Of a stretch of 64,000 bases of DNA, positions 16,879 through 59,924 are shown in pieces. The DNA is taken from the NCBI RefSeq assembly GCF_026210795.1, contig NC_089446.1, positions 3,749,001-3,813,000 of the forward strand, given 5' to 3'. Under the pieces are notes generated by a model. The model saw only the letters and a list, made by a program, of their open reading frames with translations. It ran no database searches and was not told the origin of the DNA. A program made the position numbers and the translations under genes. Origin of the DNA: Rhizophagus irregularis (taxonomy: Eukaryota; Glomeromycota; Glomeromycetes; Glomerales; Glomeraceae). Positions within the stretch are counted from its first letter, which is position 1. Each line of letters begins with the position of its first letter.

Positions 16879-19800
16879 GGGGAGCGTGTAGTCACGTGAT
16901 TTTTATTATGATCAACATGGCACAAAATTTAGGAATCCGAATCGGAAATTTTTAAGGGCGTCTCATAAATCCAGCCAGAATAGGATCACAGAATCCTACC
17001 AAAATTATAAAAAATATTTTATTTTTTTTTTTGTAATACAATATAAATTTTTTGTAACTCTCATTTCAATAAAAAACTCCAACACCGATTTTGTGCTATT
17101 TCTATGGCATTTTCGGTAATTCCTTCTATTATTACTTTACCGGACAATTGTGTAGAACTTGTACTTGTATTTACTTTTTTTAAATCAATACGAACTTTTA
17201 CCAAATTTTTTATAATTAAATTGTCAAGTAAACGAGAAATATCTTCAAATCGCCGAAGAGTTTTGTTGTAATCTTGTTTGTAAATCGGTAAAGAACTGAG
17301 TTGCTTTTCTTTGATATTATTGTTATTTGCTTTAGCAAAAACATGAATAATATCGATAGGTAAAGTAAGTTGATTTCTCATTCCCAAAAATTCTGTCACA
17401 GCGATAATAACTTTCAGTAAATGAATTACATCATTTTTAATATTTTCAGATTTTGGAAGATCTTTAAAATAGTTTATGCAACAATCACATTTTGTACACC
17501 GCGGAATTTTGGAATCGGATTGCCATGAATGGTAAGCTGCAAGTTGTTGGGCACGACATTCATAAATACTCTCACAATAAGTAACCATTTCAAATATCTT
17601 CCTTTGCCCCTTGTTTAGATATTGTGTGCGTTCAAGAGATGTAGATTCATTATTATCGAAATCACTATAAAGAAAACTATTTATTAAATAAGTTTTTTAT
17701 TTGTAATGAAAGAAATTCACAGTACCTTTCACGGCCTCCTGTAATTATGGTATATACAGTTTTAATATCATTTCGGGAATAAAACAAAATGCTTTGTGCT
17801 GGATTTCCATCACGACCTGCACGTCCGGATTCTTGTATAAAATTACCTATGTAATAAAAAGAAAAAGGTAAATTTTCTTATAACTGATATTTTAACAAAT
17901 AATATACAGTAAATCCTAACTTATACTAGACGGAAATGTATAATGTACAACAGTGCGAATATTAGGTGAATTTACGCCCAACCCAAAAGCATTTGTTGCT
18001 ATCATGACTTTTAGTAGTCGAGATTTCCATTGAAGCATAACTTGATCTCTTTCAAAACTTTCAAGACCTCCGTGATAAGTGCCAATTGCTGTGCCTTTTA
18101 GTTTGTCTTGCAATAAAGGTAATATTTCATTGCATATACCTGGAGAAGAACAATAAATTATGCATTGACCATCACTAATTTCATTAACAATTTTAGCTAT
18201 TTCCACTAAATTTCTTTCACGGGTACTCTTTTTTTTCACTATATATTCAATTTCAGGACGGGAAAAGCATGAACTGCGAATCACATTAAAGTTTACAGAA
18301 TTAATATTGAGGTTTTGACGAATTACTTCTGCATCATCTTGGGAACAAGTGGCAGTAAGAAGTAAAATGGAAGTGGATGGAAAAAACTCTTTTAAGCAGC
18401 CTAGCTTCCCCCATTCAGGCCTAATAAAATAATGTAAGAAGTTTAGATTAATATATATATATATATATATATAAAAGAAATTGTAATTCTTACCTGTAAT
18501 GGTTATATTCCAGTATACAATGGGCTTCATCTATTACAAATCTAACGCCTATTTCTCCATGAACTTTTCTTAACATATTACGAAAACCTTGATTGAGCAT
18601 TAGTTTTTCTGGTGTTATCAATAATATTTTGAGCATTTTACTCGCGATTTCTTGAAAAACTTTCTCTTGGTATTCCAATGATTGTCCTGTTGTTGCGTAA
18701 AGCCCTGCACATGGTATTCCAACTTTGATTAATTCGTTCTGAAGTAAAGATAAAGGCAAGTTAATATTTTTAAAATATAATCACTAAATCTTACACAATT
18801 ACCACTTGATCTAAAATTAATGCTTTCAAAGGTGAAATCACTACTGTCAATCCAGAAAAAATCAAACTGGATGCTGCGTAACAAAAGGTTTTGCCACCTC
18901 CTGTTTGAATTAATGCAAAAACATCCTGACCTTGGGTATATGATTGAATAACTTCTCGTTGATATAAGCGGAATGAAGAAAATTGAAATATATGTTGAAG
19001 AATAAATTGATCTGGAGGAATTATTTGAACAGGTAATTTTGAAGTTGGTTGATATGATTCATTAATAATTCTATCATGGTATCCCATTTGAATATAATAA
19101 TTACATAATTTACATAAGCCACTAGATGTGTATTTGGGAAAAGAGCGGCAACATATACATTTGACTGTAGTGGAAAAGTTTTTGATATAACAAGCAAATG
19201 AGGGTGTAAATTCTTCATATTGTTGTATTCTTTTTTGAAACTGGCGACCATAAGGTACTAATTCTTGACTAAAGTCAAAAGATTCTAATTCATTTCGTTG
19301 ATTTAATATTTTTTCACCTTTTTCTTTTGTCTTTTGTGCTAACTTTTCATTATTACGTTCTCTATTTGCCTGTCTTTCTTCTTGTATCTTCCTAATATTT
19401 ATTATATCATTCTCAGAATAACTCCCCACTCCTACGGTGTAAATAAATTCCAAAAGATTTGCAATTCCCTCATTGTTTTGGATTACAGCCAGAGAATAGC
19501 GAGCTGCAAATGACTTCCAATAATCAATTAATTTAGAAAGATAAACTAATTTAGTTCTATTGAATGATTCATTAGATGAAGTGCGAATTTCTGTTACTAA
19601 ACCTTGGCCTTTTGGTAATTGAAAGATTGTAAGTAAAAATTGGCGGAATGCATATCGTTGATTTTCAGTATATGTAATTAGATTAGGTTCTTTCAATTCA
19701 ATATCAGGATTTTCTTTGATCCAGCAAACCTCTGGCCAGCATAAAGAATGATTGCCACAAAGATGTCTAACTAATCCCTCTACTTGAACATACTTCAATT

Positions 19801-22059
19801 CATCTTCGCTAGGAGTATCTATTTCTTTATCAGCTTTTCTTGCACCAGCAGCATAAATGCATCCATTAAAATACTGCATTATCACTTGCTCAAAAGAACG
19901 CCACTGTACATTCTTTACTATAATAAAAATAAGGTGAATTTAGTTAATAATTAAATTCCATTTATTGAATTTATATTTTTAAACATACTGACCAATTTTG
20001 CTACGTATTAATTTTGCAACATGTTTTAAGTCAGCAAATATTTGGTTAACTATTGCTACTGTGCCGAGTGTTTTATTACTTTCCAAATCTCCATCTATTC
20101 CGATATCAAGTAGCAGATCAAATTCTTCCAAAATTGGTGTAACTTTTTGAAGAATAGCAATTAATATCGCGTGTTCCATTTGTCTGGAGCTTTTGTCATG
20201 ATTGCCCTTATGTACAATAACACTCTCACCATTTTTCTTGCATTTACGCGATTTTTAACAAAATAAAATCCAAGAATGGGTCTGTGAGGATATCCATCTA
20301 ATTTTTTTGAAAAGATAAATTCTCCGCTGGCCTGATTTGCATTTCTTACATGTGACCATGACACATCAAAACTTACTGGCAGAATTTTTTCATTTATTTG
20401 CTTTATATATTCACATGTCAATCGAAGAGCTTTGTTTGCACTTTCTTCTGCCTTTTTACAAATCGGATGGAAGATTTTTTTTTGATTTTCATGGTGAGAT
20501 TTTTTGGTAAGTTGCTGGGTTATTCCAAGTGTTGCTAATATCATTTCAAGTGATTGACGATTGATTCCTCCTACTAATCCACTACTTGCCACTGCTAAAG
20601 AAAAGTTTGAAGAAGTTTCATTGGAATATTCTGTATATTTCCCACAATCACATGTAATTGAAACTTTGAAAGTGAATCCTATAGAACAAACACTATATTG
20701 ACGTTTAGAATCAAGCATTGTAAAGCATTGCGAACATGGTTGAGACAATACTAGTCGGAGGAATTGGTCTGTATTAATGAGCATAGTGGTACCTATATTT
20801 GATTCTTGTATTAAATTTGAAACCTTACTCTCGATATTTTCTTTATTTTCTTGTAGGTTAACAATAAAAGGATTCATTGCCTGTTCATGTTCAACTAATT
20901 TATTTTCTGTACGCTTTAATTTTTTTTTCAGATTTCTTTTTTCGTTAAGTTCTGAAGCATATTCACATACAAGTGCTTGGGTCGATTTAGGAGTCATGGG
21001 AAGACCATTAGAACTGATTAAAATACCCGAATTGATTTTTACTGTATTAGAAGTTGTTGAAGTAGATATATTATTTTCTAAATTTTCACATAAACTACTT
21101 GCTTTTCGTTTCATTTTATTTTTTATTCTATTTGTAGTTACAATCGCATTATGAGCCTGTTTAACTTGAGTGAATAAATTTGGAAACGTCATATTAATTA
21201 CATTCCTGAGTTGAATCACAATTTCCAAAATATTGAGTCCTATTAAAGCAGGAATTGAAACGCGACCATCTATATTGAGATAATGAATCAATCCATGAAA
21301 AAAATTACGATGGGAGGATCTGTGTACACAATCAGTAAGAGAAATATCATCTTCATAATCTTCATACATATAAATTAAATTATTGTTGCTGTCTTTAGTA
21401 ATTGCAAGTCGTAAGAGTTTTTTTTTCCAAAGAATTATTACTGTATAACCAACTAATAAAGGAACCCAAGTACTTGTAGAGTTATCTTTTGGATAATTAT
21501 GTACTGTTAAAGCAAGGTATGGAGTAGTTGTTGAAGAACTAGAAGTAACAAGTTCGTTGTGTATATCCAAAGCTTCCAAAGGTACGGATTTGTCAAATAC
21601 AAGCCAACTATTATTATATGGTCGCTGGTAACTTTCGAAATGCGGATTCCTTTGGCATAAAATTTGATACCATTTCCGTAAAGGCATGTCTAAATAGTAG
21701 AATAACAATAAAGTTAAAATTTGGAAAGTGTAAATAATAAATAAAAGCATAATATCGTTTTTGAAATAAAATTTGGGTAACTAAAAAATCCCGGCAAATA
21801 GGATTCTGAACTTTTATATAGCGATTCTGAACTTTTTTTGAACTTCTTTTGATATTTTCTTCTAAAATATAATATGTAAGTCTATATAAAAACTGTACCT
21901 GACGAAACTTTAGGTTCTAAAAAATGAGAAAAAGTGGTTTTTATTTTTATATTGTTTATTTGATTATCACGTTGACTTTGACGCGAAAATCTAAAACCGC
22001 AGAAAAATTTTTGACGCCGATCAATCTTATATTAAAAATCACGTGACTACACACTCCCC
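16879..22059 (-). mobile_element. complete TTAA-flanked (Kolobok-like) DNA transposon encoding a transposase-RecQ fusion
   Basis: TTAA target duplications lie at 16875-16878 and 22060-22063. The terminal inverted repeat of about 27 bp begins GGGGAG[C/T]GTGTAGTCACG and ends TGATTTTTA, with one mismatch between ends; it contains the palindrome CACGTG. The 5,181-bp interior holds one minus-strand, six-exon gene running end to end. TTAA duplication plus the layout of the transposase (Cys-rich module, FDVSW, SSRQMEH, then IDGD and a DLKH motif) fits the Kolobok superfamily rather than piggyBac. The near-identical termini and the single coding lesion imply a recent insertion. Confidence 0.88.
17061..21687 (-). 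CDS. Kolobok-like DDE transposase fused to RecQ-family helicase (one frameshift)
   Basis: Exons: 21687-19993, 19917-18803, 18738-18494, 18420-17927, 17846-17726, 17664-17061; about 1,424 aa. Phases of all introns agree. N-terminal half: Cys-rich module (QPCSQCFTMLD, TCDCGKY), then putative catalytic Asp in FDVSW (about aa 438), SSRQMEH, and IGIDGDLESNKTL (about aa 530). C-terminal half: helicase motif I TGGGKT (about aa 902), SPLKALILDQV, DEAH (about 1009), TATCSQ, ATNAFGLGVNSPN, motif VI QESGRAGRDG (about 1190), a RecQ zinc-binding module (YECRAQQLAAYHSW, CTKCDCC) and a winged-helix-like tail. Lesion: one A appears missing in an A-run near 20245. Start chosen at 21687 (MPLRKWYQ); 21750 is possible but adds only an AT-driven hydrophobic stretch. 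Expected to act in the nucleus: strand transfer by the DDE part, DNA unwinding by RecQ. Confidence 0.85.
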
Positions 22060-22140: not shown

Positions 22141-22600
22141 TTACCCATTTTTCTTTGTTTACTAAATCTTACGAAACCCACATTCTTATTGTAATTCGAA
22201 TGCAAAATTTGATAAATTTTATTGGTCAGTTAATGTTAATCATCATGTGAAATCAAATATTTTTTTTTTAGTCATACTCAAGTTTCACAAACCCAATTAT
22301 ATTGCACTATATATCAGGAAGTTACGAAAAAAATGTACATTACATATACATTTATGCAAATCATGTACATTGCAATATTCATTCTTTTTAATGTACAAGT
22401 AATATTTAACATTAATGAACATCATCAATGAAATTTTTATCATGATGTGCAGCATTTAATAATAAATATTCAATGTACATATCTTTGCTATAATAAAAAT
22501 ATAATTACTAACTAGTAAATTTCAGTTAGTATTGATCGGTATCATGTGATCAGTTTGCCGATCGATCTTTTTTTTGATAAAAAAAAAGTCTAATAAAAAA
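22141..22600. other. gene-free AT-rich stretch
   Basis: No gene. 'gtacatt'/'aatgtac' words recur at 22330-22490, related in style to the words at 24720-24890 on the other side of the mini-exon array. 22600-22720 turns into a pyrimidine-rich tract that could be the leader exon of the array transcript. Confidence 0.4.
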
Positions 22601-22609
22601 CTTTAAACT

Positions 22610-24600
22610 TTTTTTTTCCCTTTCTTTCACTTCCCTTCGTCCCCTTGTCCTTTCGTCCTTCTCCTATATCCTTCCCTTTCCTTTCGTCCTTCACTTCCCT
22701 TTCGTTCTCTTCTTTTTCTCACACCTGTAAGTTTCGTTACTTTTTTTTTAATTTATTTTTTTTTTATTTTTTTTTTTAATTTTATCTTTTTTTTTCGTTT
22801 CTTTTCATTATTTTATTTTTTGTAGGACGTTTACTAGGGGGACGCCGGCTTGAATACTATGAAACCGGACTTTAAGGTAGTAAGAAACTGAAAAGGGGAA
22901 GATTTTTTGTTATTTTTAATTTAAGAAATGAACTAACGTTTCTCTTTATTATTTTATTTTTTGTAGGACGTTTACTAGGGGGACGCTGGCTTGAATACTA
23001 TGAAACCGGACTTTAAGGTAGTAAGAAACTGGAAAGTGGAAGATTTTTTGTTATTTTTAATTTAAGAAACGATCTAACGTTTCTTTTTCATTGTTTTTTT
23101 TTTGTAGGACGCCAGCTTGTTCACGAAACCAGACTTTAAAGTAAAAAACTGGGAAAGGGGGATGGTGGAAGGGAATTTCGCAAAGAGGAACCAAGATTCG
23201 TAAGAATCTTGGTTTTTTTTTATTTTTTTTATTATTATGAAACGGTTTACTAACCGTTCCTTTCTTTTTTTTATAGGTTCGGTGTCTCGGAAGGGCTTCC
23301 GAAGAATGGAAAATGGAGAACTAAAGTTCGTAAGTATTATATTCAGTTACGAACCTTAGATTTATTTCTTTAATACTATGGACGGTTCTAACCGTTCTTT
23401 TTATTTTATTTTTTATAGGTTCTGTCGGGTGATCTTCCGAAGAATGGAAAACGGAGAACTAAGGTTCGTAAGTATTATATTACGAACCTTAGATTTATTT
23501 TTTTTAATACTATGAACGGTTCTAACCGTTCTTTTTATTTTATTTTTTATAGGTTCTGTCGGGTGGTCTTTTGAAGAATGGAAAACGGAGAACTAAGGTT
23601 CGTAAATATTATATTACGAACCTTAGATTTATTTTTTTTAATACTATGAACGGTTCTAACCGTTCTTTTTATTTTATTTTTTATAGGTTCCGTCGGGTGG
23701 TCTTCCGAAGAACGGAAAACAAAAAACTAAAGTTCGTAAGTATTATATTACGAACCTTAGATTTATTTTTTTTAATACTATGAACGGTTTTAACTGTTCT
23801 TTTTATTTTATTTTTTATAGGTTCCGTCGGGTGGTCTTCTGAAGAACGGAAAATGGAGAACTAAGGTTCGTAAGTATTATATTACGAACCTTAGATTTAT
23901 TTTTTTTTAATACTATGAATGGTTCTAACCGTTCTTTTTATTTTATTTTTAGGTTTTGGGTTTCTCGGGTGTCTTCTGAAAAATGGAAAAAACCAAAATT
24001 CGTAAGTACGAATCTTTGGTTTATTTTTATTTATTTTATTATTATGAACAGTTTCTAACAGTTCTTTTCTTTGATTTTTAGGTTTCGGGTGGGCTTCTGA
24101 AGAACAGAAAACCCAAAGATTCGTAAGGACAATACGAATCTTTAATTTTTTTAATTTTTTTTGTTATTTCTAATTCTTTTTCTTCTTTTAGATCTTGGGT
24201 GGGTTTCTGAAGAACGGAAAAAGAAGACGAATCTTAACAGATTGGTAAGTTTCAAAGATTTCAATTTACTTCGAAACTTGGATTTTTTTATTTTTCTTTT
24301 AGAAACGTAAACTAATGTTTCTTGTTTGCTTTTTTTTTGTAGGATCTGGGATCACTCAGTTATATGGAATTTCGAAGGTATATACAGTACCTTCAAATTT
24401 TTATTTTTTCTAACGAAACGTTTTTACTAATGGTTTCATTTTTTTTTCTTTTGTAGGTCCAAGACGCGACTGGATCCTATTTCGAAGGTATATATATCCC
24501 TTCGAATTTTACTTTTTTTTATTTTTAACGAAAAGTTTTATTAACATTTTCATTTTTTTCTTTATAGGTTTATTTTGGAAATCAATTTTTATCTAGTATT
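22610..24600 (+). ncRNA. array of about 15 mini-exons with hairpin-bearing introns; spliced transcript of unknown nature
   Basis: A CT-rich leader ends at a GTAAGT donor (22726). Then follow putative exons 22826-22876, 22967-23017, 23108-23199, 23277-23329, 23419-23467, 23553-23601, 23687-23735, 23821-23869, 23953-24001, 24082-24122, 24192-24244, 24343-24377, 24457-24487 and 24568 onward. Every intron has a GT donor, a CTAAC-like or related branch point in a hairpin loop or stem, a T-rich tract and TAG|G. At donors, exon end and intron start form a stem, for example CTAAGGTTCGTAA with TTACGAACCTTAG. Five 49-nt exons recur with a 132-134-bp period. A 49-nt exon changes frame each time, so a long protein is unlikely; a 58-codon frame spans exons 3 to 6 (ATG at 23000, stop 23430). 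I do not recognise it. Confidence 0.55.
23000..23432 (+). CDS. possible 58-aa spliced small ORF inside the mini-exon array
   Basis: The frame begins at the ATG of mini-exon 3 (MKPDFK), passes through exon 23108-23199 (with KPDFK repeated, then WERGMVEGNFAKR) and exon 23277-23329 (EGLPKNGKWRTK), and stops at TGA in exon 23419-23467. The phases across the three junctions agree. The same ATG in exon 2 opens only a nine-codon frame. No signal peptide and no domain are visible. It may be a chance frame in a structured RNA. Confidence 0.3.
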
Positions 24601-25150
24601 TAACATATTATATAGATTTAAAATAGCCATAGATATTATATTAATTAGTTAATAATACATTTGTATAGTATAATGATAGTATAATAATAAATAACGCATG
24701 TATTTTAATATCATTAATAAATGTGTTAATTAATCGTAATGTACAGGTGATGAACATCTTTAATTTGGCGATAAACATCAAATGTTGTGACATCGGTAGT
24801 ACATTGCAGGGTCCGATGTTCAGCGTTTCTTTATGATATACATCAAATGACTGATGTACATTTGATGAATATTTTTCCCGTGACTTCCTGATGTACGTCA
24901 TAATTACACATCTTAATTACAAAAAAACTTTTCATGTCACTTATCAGTCCAATCAAAAATAAATAAACCGGATTTTGAACAGGCGTAACATGAGATTATA
25001 TTTAAACGGTACGGTAACACTATTGGCTTTAAGCAATGTGACGAAAATTATACCCTACCTCTTGCTGTCAACACTTTCTTCACCAAGAATATTATATTCT
25101 TCGAAAGATGTGTTAATATCTATGACGAACAACAACTGGCTAATTCCTTA
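24601..25150. other. no supported gene
   Basis: AT-rich sequence with open frames on both strands (24641-24901 minus, 24975-25166 plus) that show no motif. The tail near 25100 may be decayed sequence upstream of the zinc-knuckle relic that follows. Confidence 0.4.
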
Positions 25151-25170
25151 CAACCATCCAGTATAAAGAG

Positions 25171-25377
25171 GCCTGTAAAATTTGTAAGTATTTTGGCCAT
25201 TCTGTAAAAAGTTGCCCCAATTTAAAATCGCAGTTTTGATGGGGTAATTATTGTATACGCTGCTGGAAAGCTGGGCACAACAGTAGTGAATGTAAAAATG
25301 AACTGGAGGTCGTGCCGTTCAACGAAGAGTTTCGTTCTCCAGAAGAAATTGTAAATTTTTTGATTTATAAATACTAG
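25171..25377 (+). pseudogene. CCHC zinc-knuckle protein fragment
   Basis: Two CX2CX4HX4C knuckles are visible in one frame: CKICKYFGHSVKSC at 25174-25215 and CIRCWKAGHNSSEC at about 25252-25293. An in-frame TGA at 25237-25239 separates them. The tail EEFRSPEEIVNFLIYKY ends at TAG 25375-25377. Double CCHC knuckles are typical of retroelement gag/ORF1 proteins and of host RNA-binding proteins. Nothing upstream continues the frame, so this looks like a broken retroelement ORF1 remnant. Confidence 0.6.
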
Positions 25378-53104: not shown

Positions 53105-54043
53105 TATTCATAAAGCTTTTGAGAGTTATGAGCAGTACTTGTCTAAACCAAAAGTGAGAGGCGATGTAGACGAAGTACACCTGACAATCCATTAAATAGA
53201 TGGCGACGTACAGGGGATGGTAGCACTTTTAATGCATACATTGAGTTTGTTATCATTTTAGCTGATACTATATATACTATTCGTTATTTTCCTACACTGG
53301 TAAAAAAATGATTTATCCTACACATATCTTACACATATTGGATACTCAAAATGTAGAAAATCATACACAAATAATACACATATCATACACATATCGGGTA
53401 CTAATATATATATCATACATATATCAGGTACCTGATAGGTATACTATATATATAAGTACCCAATATGTGTATGATATGTGTATTATTTGTGTATGATTTT
53501 CTACATTTTGAGTACCCGATATATGTAAGATATGTGTAGGATATGTGTAGGATAGACCATTTTTTTACCAGTGCTAAATCTGGTAGTATACAAGTTTTTG
53601 GGTCTTTTGATCCTGTTGCTATCTTTTTACGTTACCTTTTTGAATATTCACTACCTGAGTTTTCTTCTGTAAAACTTGTGGGTGAAAATAAGGCTCTCCT
53701 GCACAATTATAAATTTGTGATTAATATCGGGAGTGATAAGTTTATTAATCTTTCTACCTTAGTATATGCTTTAAAGTCTATAGATGGTATTCGTGAGATT
53801 CTCCTCTTTCTGATAAAGTATATTAAGAATGATGCAGGTGATATTCATTCTAAAATTGCTATAGTCTTCACATCAAAAATTCGGGTATATATCTGGCCTA
53901 AATCTGGTAAGTTTAATATATTTGGCACTAAGACTGAATTAGATGCTGATATGATCTATAAGTTCTTACAGAAGTTGTTTTCTAATCCATATGATTTTGG
54001 TGATTTTATTTGTGATGCACCTATTCCAGATTGCGAGAGGTAA
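53105..54043 (+). pseudogene. unknown gene with two PKSG repeats, split by a MITE
   Basis: Upstream of the MITE the plus-strand frame includes NRWRRTGDGSTFNAYIEF; downstream it continues SGSIQVFGSFDPVAIFLRYL and runs to TAG... a stop at 54041-54043 after PIPDCER. If the MITE (53296-53573) and one copy of its CTA duplication are ignored, the frame is continuous across the site. Two segments resemble each other: PKSGSIQVFG (split by the insertion) and SKIRVYIWPKSGKFNIFG near 53875-53930. This internal duplication is reminiscent of TBP-like folds, but that is only a resemblance. I cannot name the family. As it stands the gene is broken. Confidence 0.5.
53296..53573. mobile_element. 278-bp CACTA-like MITE, copy A
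   Basis: Terminal inverted repeat CACTGGTAAAAAAATG; 3-bp target duplication CTA on both sides (53293-53295 and 53574-53576). The interior is a long palindrome of 'tacacatatcatacacat' type words with a central GGTACC-like site. CACTG termini and 3-bp duplications fit the CACTA superfamily. Nearly identical to the copy at 59583-59861. Confidence 0.88.
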
Positions 54044-57705: not shown

Positions 57706-59924
57706 ATGACCAAAAAAAAGGTCCTGTTTGGAAACACTGGACAGTTATTACATAAAACCAAGTGGAAAATAGCAAAAGTAATTCACATCCTTCTGTGCAA
57801 TGTAATTACTGTACCAAAATTTTTGACCGAGCTGTTTTTTCATGAATGCAAGTACACCTTGATAATGAATGTTCCGGAGCACCTGATAATGCAAAATCTG
57901 CTAAACAAAATGTAGGTTCACAAGATTCTATACTCAAAACTACACAATCCCTCCCAAATAATATTGTACTAAATTCCATTCCCACAGATACACTTACAAA
58001 TAGACCTGTAAAACGAATTAAAACACAAAAAATTGAAAATTTTATTGATTGTATGAGCGAAGAAGAACAGGAAAATCTTGAAATCCAACTAGCACAAGCA
58101 TTATATTTAGCTGGAGTTCCATTTTCCTTTGTTGATAATCCACTTGTTATTCAATTTTTTCAGTGCCTTCGGCCATCTTTCAAATTGCCAAATAGAAAAA
58201 GACTAGCTGATGAGTTGTTGGATGATGTTTATGATGAAGTGAAAATGCATACGGATAAACAAATTTCCAAAGCAAAATCACTTTGTATGGTTTCTGATGG
58301 TTGGTCTAACATTAATCGAGTATCGGTACAAAATTTTATTGTTTATACTCCTAAACTGATTTTTTTTGATACCACATTTTCAGGTGAAGAATCTCATACA
58401 GGAGAGTGGATTGCAAACCAAATAACTCAACAAATGGAAATTATTGGCGCTCAAAAATTTTCCTCAGTCATTACAGATACAGCTAGTGTAATGAAAGCAG
58501 CATGGAAACGGATTGAAGAAAAATATTCTCATATCGTTTGTCTTGGATGTAACTCTCACATTATTAACCTATTAATTGGAGATATTTTAAAAATTGATGA
58601 AATTAAAGATATAGTTAATAATGCTAAGATTATAGTGAATTATTTTAAATCTCATATACAAGCAGCGGCAAAACTAAAACGTATTCAGATCGAAAATTAT
58701 AATAAGGAGATTGCATTAGTTTTGCCAATACTTACACGATGGGGTACGCATCTTAGCTGCTTTCAGTCACTTCTAAAATCAAAAATTGCTCTTGAACAAG
58801 TGTTAATGGATTCCGAAATTTGCCAAAAAATAAATAGGGAAGTAAGAAATAATGTATTGTCAGAGGAATTTTGGGAAATGGCGAATTTAATAACAAAATT
58901 TTTAGAGCCAATAGTTGTGGCATTAAAGTTGTTTGAATCTGATTTATCTACTCCTTCAACTGTCTATTCAAATTTCAAAAAATTAATGAATAAAGTTAGC
59001 GAAATTTCATGTAATTTTTCTGATAATATTCAACAGCTTATTCAGAAATGATGGGAGTATTCATACCATCCTGTTATGATGGTTGCTTATATATTAGATC
59101 CACGTTTTTTAGAAGAAAGTAAAGATGCGGATATAGAAGCAATTGGGTATACTGAGTTTACAGAATTCACAAATAAAAGATTTGGTCAGGAAGAATCCAT
59201 AAAATTGTTTGCAGAATTAGTAACATTTCGTCAAAAAAATTCACCTTATGATAATGAAACAATTTGGTTATCATCATCCGTTCTTAATTCATTCATATGG
59301 TGGCAAACTTCAAAAAGTGAGCTTCAGCAGTTAGCCATTAAAATTCTTTCAATTCTGACGTCATTTGCAGCTGCAGAAAGAAAATTTTCAACTTTTGGAT
59401 TTATTCATAATAAAATTCGTAATCGTTTACAAAATGATCGTGTAAAAAAATTAGTTTTTATTTATGGGAATCTTTGGATACACAAAGGGGTTTGAAATGT
59501 AAAAAAAATAAATTTATACATGATCATCAAACACTTGATGATAACGATAATGTATAGTGGTAATAATAATGACAATAATTCACACTGGTAAAAAAATGAT
59601 TTATCCTACACATATCTTACACATATTGGGTACTCAAAATGTAGAAAATCATACACAAATAATACACATATCATACACATATCGGGTACTAATATATATA
59701 TCATACATATATCAGGTACCTGATAGGTATACTATATATATAAGTACCCGATATGTATATGATATGTGTATTATTTGTGTATGATTTTCTACATTTTGAG
59801 TACCCGATATATGTAAGATATGTGTAGGATATGTGTAGGATAGACCATTTTTTTACCAGTGTCAGATGATGATAGATTAATTGGATTGGAATTAAATATT
59901 ACAGATTTAATAGCTGAAGAGTGA
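57706..59924 (+). pseudogene. hAT transposase (BED finger to dimerisation region) with stops
   Basis: The BED-type finger region is visible as SHPSVQCNYCTKIFDRAV and HLDNEC, with a TGA at 57843-57845 inside it. From 57846 the frame runs to a TGA at 59049-59051, then continues in the same frame from 59052: WEYSYHPVMMVAYILDPRF. Landmarks: MVSDGWSNINRVSVQNFIVY, SVITDTASVMKAAWKRIEEK, LGCNSHIINLLIGDILK, LPILTRWGTHLSCFQSLLKS, and the C-terminal FAAAERKFSTFGFIHNKIRN of the dimerisation domain, with stop at 59493-59495. A fragment with LIGLELNITDLIAEE (59880-59924) beyond the nested MITE is probably the old C terminus. Stops at likely Arg/Gln positions and the small N-terminal shift make it inactive. 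Confidence 0.82.
59583..59861. mobile_element. 279-bp CACTA-like MITE, copy B
   Basis: Termini CACTGGTAAAAAAATG; 3-bp duplication TCA at 59580-59582 and 59862-59864. Differs from copy A at 53296-53573 by only a few bases, which implies recent movement. Sits near the 3' end of the hAT transposase gene. Confidence 0.88.

Follow-up and report, generated by a model that had tools for sequence, protein, structure and literature searches.

The array of mini-exons and introns at positions 22610-24600 of the window (the whole 64,000-nt stretch of Rhizophagus irregularis DNA analysed here) is the interior, or cargo, of a non-autonomous terminal inverted repeat (TIR) DNA transposon spanning 22312-24893. 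Our best explanation, which on sequence evidence we would put at a probability of roughly 0.55, is that this cargo is a structured intron array: non-coding, with introns removed by the spliceosome, and with a structure that was selected in the source copies of the element. The same combination of mini-exons and hairpins occurs at other loci in the genome, and it extends beyond the sequence of the element in the window.

The array lies within a mobile element

An earlier note on this DNA had taken 22610-24600 as the feature of interest; the array is indeed there, but the true feature is the larger mobile element at 22312-24893. Alignments with five other copies (L009, L010, L011, L012 and L015) stop on both sides of the element, at about 22308-22313 and 24893-24895. 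An inverted repeat beginning CATCAGGAAGT is found at both ends, with 79% agreement between left and right over 42 positions, and such terminal inverted repeats, as expected of a TIR transposon, are common to dispersed copies. Matching 2-bp flanks, read by eye and taken as target duplications, are present in all 14 copies that have both ends (TA in 5, TT in 3, AA in 2, AT in 2 and CA in 2, with TATCAGG counted as the element start in the window copy and L024). Since these duplications are mixed, the element does not fit Tc1/mariner, which requires TA only, here seen in 5 of 14 copies; the CACTA/CMC/Plavaka-like group is, we presume from the short duplications, one superfamily candidate. End to end, the 14 measured copies are 2.3-4.6 kb in size, the longer ones containing insertions.

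Across the 146.7 Mb and 32 contigs of the genome (the window lies on contig 18), the end pattern gave 104 matches with at most 2 mismatches, 50 forward and 54 reverse, against 0 for the reversed control. Similarity searching gave at least 116 matches, a lower bound because 40 of 340 candidates were scored. Eight loci (L009-L016) align with the window over most of about 22310-24895, some being truncated or carrying insertions; L013 has no right end and L016 no left end. Another 12 loci (L017-L028) match parts of the array and have the right end, together with the left end in 8 of the 12, one of them partial.

No transposase of its own was found among the element frames tested. Frames were taken from 28 elements (at least 90 aa in 20 elements and at least 80 aa in 8), those of 22 elements were put to Pfam, and the reach of this search ends above shorter or multi-exon transposase genes. 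The matches above cut-off were a Tc1-like helix-turn-helix in L036, where the frame interrupts the right end of the element, and a reverse transcriptase in L017; both are most likely parts of other elements. A further relative, L045, also contains a Tc1-like frame, and the two Tc1-like frames (L036:3217-4315 and L045:312-827) are located within or next to the right ends of these relatives. As for a KDZ transposase partner, none of the 23 KDZ matches was near the end positions among the matches listed. A 515-aa open frame with no Pfam match (L024:2164-3708) lies between two right-end pieces of an element copy.

Anatomy of the intron array

Hand annotation of the plus strand between 22610 and 24600 yields 14 predicted introns, all ending in TAG, in keeping with the earlier description of about 14 introns of common layout. 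Their donors are GT, mostly GTAAG, and are followed by a CTAAC-type branch motif in most cases, a T-tract and the TAG, which is the order of signals expected of spliceosomal introns; intron 1 is without a clear branch motif. The internal exons measure 51, 51, 92, 53, five times 49, 41, 53, 35 and 31 nt, and the array is flanked by a CT-rich leader on the 5' side and a terminal exon on the 3' side. Five exons of exactly 49 nt at a 132-134-bp period had been reported, and these are exons 6-10 (23419-23467, 23553-23601, 23687-23735, 23821-23869 and 23953-24001), with acceptor-to-acceptor spacings of 134, 134, 134 and 132. Sequence comparison likewise bears out the proposed tandem duplication of an exon-intron unit. 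The features of the element are as follows.

22312..24893, plus strand: whole non-autonomous TIR element, with TA duplications at 22310-22311 and 24894-24895
22312..22351, plus strand: left terminal inverted repeat, starting TATCAGGAAGTTACGAAAAAAATGT...; most other copies start CATCAGG
22610..22726, plus strand: CT-rich leader, predicted exon 1, from sequence; common to L009-L013 and L015
22727..22825, plus strand: predicted intron 1, without clear hairpins
22826..23107, plus strand: predicted exons 2-3 (51 nt each) and introns 2-3, with branch hairpins GAAATG/CGTTTC and GAAACG/CGTTTC; the donor position could shift 3 nt downstream
23108..23199, plus strand: predicted exon 4 (92 nt), whose end is the 5' arm of a donor hairpin
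23182..23221, plus strand: intron 4 donor hairpin AACCAAGATTC-GTAA-GAATCTTGGTT, with the GT in the loop; fold z -7.95
23241..23258, plus strand: intron 4 branch hairpin AACGGTT-TACT-AACCGTT; fold z -2.54
23277..23952, plus strand: predicted exons 5-9 and introns 5-9, tandem units; introns 5 and 6 folded
23953..24191, plus strand: predicted exons 10-11 (49 and 41 nt) and introns 10-11, with 3' arms CGAATCTTT; fold z -4.54 and -4.80
24192..24342, plus strand: predicted exon 12 and intron 12, donor paired within the intron (AAGTTTC..GAAACTT), weakly here; fold z -0.44
24343..24567, plus strand: predicted exons 13-14 (35 and 31 nt) and introns 13-14, with GTATAT donors; fold z -4.13 and -1.86
24568..24700, plus strand: predicted terminal exon with AATAAA-like words, from sequence
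24854..24893, minus strand: right terminal inverted repeat, from comparison of both ends

The loop of the intron 4 donor hairpin consists exactly of GTAA, the bases with which that intron begins. The tandem units at 23277..23952 have donor stems of the type CTAAGGTTCGTAA/TTACGAACCTTAG, in which the exon end itself belongs to the 5' arm, and branch stems of the type GAACGGTT/AACCGTTC. Introns 13-14 have donor stems of the type TTCGAAGG/CCTTCGAA; in the window copy, intron 13 has CCTTCAAA as its 3' arm. An inner TAG of intron 12, at 24300-24302, is probably skipped.

Local hairpins at donors and branch points

Folding of the donor regions of eight introns of the window copy gave z-scores of -7.95, -3.08, -5.99, -4.54, -4.80, -0.44 (intron 12), -4.13 and -1.86; intron 6 was folded singly, and introns 7-9 have the same donor stem by sequence. 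Four branch segments gave -2.54, -4.83, -1.03 and -2.73. The three stem pairs named in the earlier note (GGTTC/GAACC, GATTC/GAATC and TTCGAAG/CTTCGAA) are all present, while its broader picture of two stems in every intron is true of only part of the array. Clear donor hairpins are found in introns 4-11 and 13-14, but not in introns 1-3, and branch hairpins occur in about nine introns, with none in introns 1 and 11 and weak ones in 13 and 14 (corrections to the branch hairpins were read on the majority sequence of nine copies). All of these hairpins are local to the donor or the branch point, and none spans the intron.

Matched arms pair better on average than swapped arms

Among the element introns, 233 have GTAAG, GTGAG, GTAAA or GTAGG donors, 60 of them non-redundant; GTATAT donors stand outside the tests because the selection kept these four types. 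Mean fold z-scores were -1.63 for the donor (60 introns) and -1.76 for the branch (51 of the 60, the nine introns below 70 nt being left out), compared to +0.69 and -0.02 for 13 candidate host introns. These host introns, which are candidates by sequence, were hand-picked before folding from the 26 candidates of a looser finder, because the set of 6 from a strict finder included at least one member of another array (L013).

When arms were swapped between units, matched donor arms were more stable than swapped ones (-8.26 vs -6.58 kcal/mol, n = 60, z -5.3, 0 of 2000 permutations), and so were matched branch arms (-4.34 vs -2.40 kcal/mol, n = 54, z -6.7, 0 of 2000 permutations). Host introns gave z +0.8 for the donor (n = 13) and +0.4 for the branch (n = 12); six of the 60 element introns and one of the 13 host introns, without a branch motif, were left out of the branch comparison. 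The effect is an average one: only 13% of the donor units and 11% of the branch units had their matched arm in the top 5%, and arms common to related units may account for this.

A similar picture emerges for donors of the AAGTTTC..GAAACTT kind. In 29 distinct inner sequences from the fetched loci (7 of 36, shorter than 7 nt, being left out), 3.21 contiguous pairs were found vs 2.18 under permutation (0 of 5000), with 5 of the 29 having no inner pair at all. A second set comprised 26 distinct inner sequences of at least 11 nt, drawn from 45 sequences among the genome-wide donor-motif matches listed, after repeats, opposite-strand readings and some short inner parts had been left out. Out of 4 possible Watson-Crick pairs, these formed 3.27 vs 2.17 when permuted (0 of 5000 permutations), the count of contiguous Watson-Crick pairs was reached in 4 of 5000, and inner pair 2 was CG in 15, TA in 6 and AT in 5. 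The two sets overlap because L048 is in both, and, because related sequences stay in all the pairing sets, the permutation counts are not exact probabilities. Taken as a whole, it is unlikely that the hairpins are due to chance; that they act in splicing is something we infer.

Covariation within one unit class and decay of inserted copies

Compensating stem changes had been proposed as a sign of selection for RNA structure. Across units this is supported by the arm-swap comparisons, and within one unit class by a test of pairing maintenance, but not by covariation within that class. From 108 introns (98 unique), 74 distinct trimmed sequences were obtained by requiring anchors and merging identicals, and an all-pairs, phylogeny-aware test on these found no pair with E<0.05. 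Pointwise p-values of 0.006 and 0.008 were obtained for two variable pairs of the donor stem, and variation in loop length made for a poor alignment of the branch columns. When pairing was followed from a reconstructed root, it was kept at 93.4%, a level reached in 0 of 500 simulations of a tree-based null (59.2%) that ignores rate differences between columns. By parsimony there were 3 double compensatory changes, against a null mean of 0.55 (10 of 500 simulations reach 3), so the compensating pairs are present, but few within a single class. Single pair-preserving changes (19 vs 20.8) and pair-breaking changes (20 vs 25.0; 88 of 500 as low) were no different from the same null.

Differences between copies seem to have arisen largely irrespective of where splice sites and stems lie. 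In a group of nine copies (group A) 41 differences keep and 71 break a stem pair, and in a group of five (group B) 30 keep and 19 break; mutation density gives a mixed picture, with 123/5256 in stems vs 363/10071 outside in group A and 50/2730 vs 98/7255 in group B. Among the private C>T/G>A changes of the window element and its copies, those at CpG sites number 64 of 203 (group A) and 77 of 145 (group B), a bias that methylated repeats might show, and this decay is about symmetric (CG to TG 69 and CG to CA 66 in group A, 50 and 45 in group B). At donor CpGs, 17 units have TG, a change on the exon base side that leaves the GT intact, and 13 have CA, with the GT destroyed; no purifying selection at the donor GT was seen in present copies. 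Element branch arms have 37 TG vs 15 CA, a tally in which copies related by descent are counted repeatedly. The 100 listed branch sites include 34 wobble, 19 A.C and 13 doubly changed pairs. Their excess of wobble over A.C, as expected under RNA-level selection, is suggestive at p=0.053, a value that is too small because the rows include related copies. For an excess of double changes at these sites, Fisher's test gave p-values of 0.11 (outer pair) and 0.046 (inner pair), and CpG decay in both arms can produce part of the apparent covariation. These results on copy differences, CpG and wobble fit a neutral decay of inserted copies, which leaves any selection to the source copies.

It is here that an origin of the stems at the DNA level has to be weighed, in which quasi-palindrome correction, template switching and unequal exchange would make and homogenise the stems and RNA pairing would be incidental. 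The material is suited to such processes: the repeats are in tandem with turnover, many stem differences are CpG decay that can appear in both arms, the wobble asymmetry is not significant at 0.05, and present copies are under little constraint. What they do not predict is the placement, with stems at both splice signals in unit after unit of differing sequence, and the 13 host introns tested are without such stems. We consider this explanation unlikely, though deserving of serious attention. In our preferred reading, the array was probably selected at the RNA level in the source copies.

The architecture recurs at other loci

A search for the unit elsewhere in the genome had been suggested, and the architecture does recur, both in the many copies of the element and at other loci. 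Eight further elements (L029-L036) have the same ends with much of the interior different. Of these, L030 and L033 were read throughout; their mini-exons are different, and their donors include GTAAGTTTC...GAAACTTAC, in which the donor itself is paired within the intron. L046 has the right end in common and mixes both kinds of module; upstream of this mixed array, an open frame matches the ZZ zinc finger (L046:2910-3335, plus strand, E 1.3e-4) and is possibly a gene capture or an adjacent gene. The same plan was seen in L047, L048 and L049, found via the branch motif, and L050 was included in the scan for donors of the AAGTTTC..GAAACTT kind. Mini-exon arrays other than that of the window thus include L047, L048, L049 and L013 near base 2600 (minus strand), some with a period of about 110 bp, and the donor stems of L048 are especially regular (GTAAGTTTCGCAAC...GTTGCGAAACTT, GTGAGTTTCATGA...TCATGAAACTT).

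Genome-wide, a branch-hairpin motif (GAAACGNNCTAACGTTTC) gave 328 matches and a donor-hairpin motif (GTAAGTTTCN{2,24}GAAACTTA) gave 505, a figure that overstates the number of sites because some are read on both strands; both reversed controls gave 0. Similar modules are present in L030, L046 and L047, and L047 is without family ends among the matches listed. We tentatively propose, as something we would not yet bet on, that mini-exon genes carried by transposons, structured and non-coding, make up a class found across the genome, with these loci among its members. In this class, covarying local hairpins would govern splice-site partnering, signals would be structurally guarded throughout the array, and spread would take place by DNA transposition together with module shuffling.

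The mutual similarity of the modules in L030, L046 and L047 might also reflect an introner-like process, in which single structured introns spread and accumulate within repeats, the arrays being their nurseries or graveyards. Excerpts of PMC8469720 describe fungal introner-like elements and stwintrons with predicted secondary structure or internal inverted repeats. In the loci read, the units are in arrays with mini-exons, outside recognised coding exons, none is found singly in a host coding exon, and the hairpins are local and not intron-spanning, which makes this process quite improbable as the source of the arrays. A plain satellite with splice-like words by chance would suit a tandem array in a repeat-rich genome, but the order of signals is the same in units of differing sequence and the reversed patterns gave 0 matches vs 328 and 505, leaving it very improbable.

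The predicted spliced RNA appears to be non-coding

As annotated, the predicted spliced RNA is 903 nt in length, and its longest ATG frame is 71 aa, compared to a 95th percentile of 78 in base-shuffled sequences. No phase is open in exon 2 or exon 3, the 49-nt exons rotate the reading frame, and Pfam has no match to array frames from the window, L009 or L015. The predicted RNA is thus apparently non-coding. An SP7-like effector gene, which needs an open frame with tandem repeats, was rejected for the predicted spliced RNA. The related idea of a decayed protein-coding mini-exon gene captured by a transposon, for example one for a repeat-containing secreted protein, can point to the existence of SP7-like repeat-containing effector genes in this group (excerpts of PMC11333574) and to the ZZ-domain frame close to the array in L046, but it is largely refuted by the rotating and closed frames, a longest frame within the shuffled range and the lack of a Pfam family in those three copies, and is the least probable of the explanations considered.

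Relationship to known systems

The element resembles non-autonomous TIR DNA transposons in its inverted ends, short target duplications, many copies and lack of its own transposase in the frames tested, and differs from others in that its interior is composed of predicted introns and non-coding mini-exons. At tau exon 10, a host gene donor is regulated by a local hairpin. As in that case, where the stem-loop is able to affect splicing, many of the donors here lie in predicted stem-loops; cases of the tau type are single regulated exons in coding genes, whereas these are repeated arrays in transposons. A mirtron has one pre-microRNA hairpin, unlike the two short hairpins per array intron. What array introns and mirtrons (PMC5569705) have in common is a short intron with a hairpin.

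Fungal introner-like elements and the stwintrons of Hypoxylaceae are similarly multi-copy spliceosomal introns (here predicted), and the fungal ones have predicted structure, according to the parts of PMC8469720 and PMC9860276 drawn on here. They sit in host genes, whereas the array units are in tandem with their own exons. In stwintrons, inverted repeats of 45-55 nt occupy the intron ends (PMC8469720, PMC9860276, same parts), whereas each array hairpin is confined to a donor or a branch point. Inverted repeats at intron ends, a trait of some introner families, are absent from the array introns. Rhizophagus is not named in the main text of PMC9860276, and "intron" and "splic" have zero occurrences in the main text of PMC8647823 and PMC11075540. 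Titles and abstract openings, mostly of literature outside subscription, included none on transposon-borne, hairpin-guarded mini-exon arrays.

A model for the element and its implications

Under the preferred reading of a selected, structured cargo, the element would carry an mRNA-like but non-coding RNA polymerase II transcription unit, with a CT-rich leader, mini-exons and an AATAAA-like end, from which the spliceosome would remove the predicted introns. In source copies, selection may hold every donor and branch point in a local hairpin of its own, a less certain step. Such hairpins could curb the pairing of donors with the wrong acceptor among near-identical units and could set the order or rate of splicing, and the processed RNA would help the element, for example by escape from a silencing directed at repeat RNA left unspliced. 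Most inserted copies would then decay under little constraint. One unit junction was also sought as a spliced genomic copy, and none was found with up to 3 mismatches.

Should these introns be spliced, the elements would provide hundreds of natural introns with varying hairpins and constant signals, on which the influence of local RNA structure on the choice of splice site could be tested directly. Unclassified repeats account for between 24 and 30% of this fungal genome (excerpts of PMC8647823 and PMC11075540), and the elements, if they are among these repeats, would characterise part of them. They would also raise the question of why a parasite seemingly without a protein product keeps an mRNA-like gene.

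Surroundings of the element

The window has no Rfam match at the gathering cut-off, no tRNA by scan and no match in a plasmid collection. Ten of its frames put to Pfam matched only DEAD, Helicase_C, a RecQ zinc family below cut-off and DUF659. The element is directly preceded, at 17061-21750 (minus strand), by a DEAD/helicase-like (RecQ-like) gene in the opposite orientation, and a stretch at about 25140-25330 (plus strand) looks, by eye, as if it codes for a CCHC zinc knuckle. Further along, two blocks with 99% identity (53294-53573 and 59582-59861) flank a stretch containing the DUF659 frame (57846-59051), perhaps another DNA transposon. The window also contains two inverted repeat pairs about 40 kb apart, 1395-2661/42398-43681 (94%) and 8335-8971/52338-52988 (92%).
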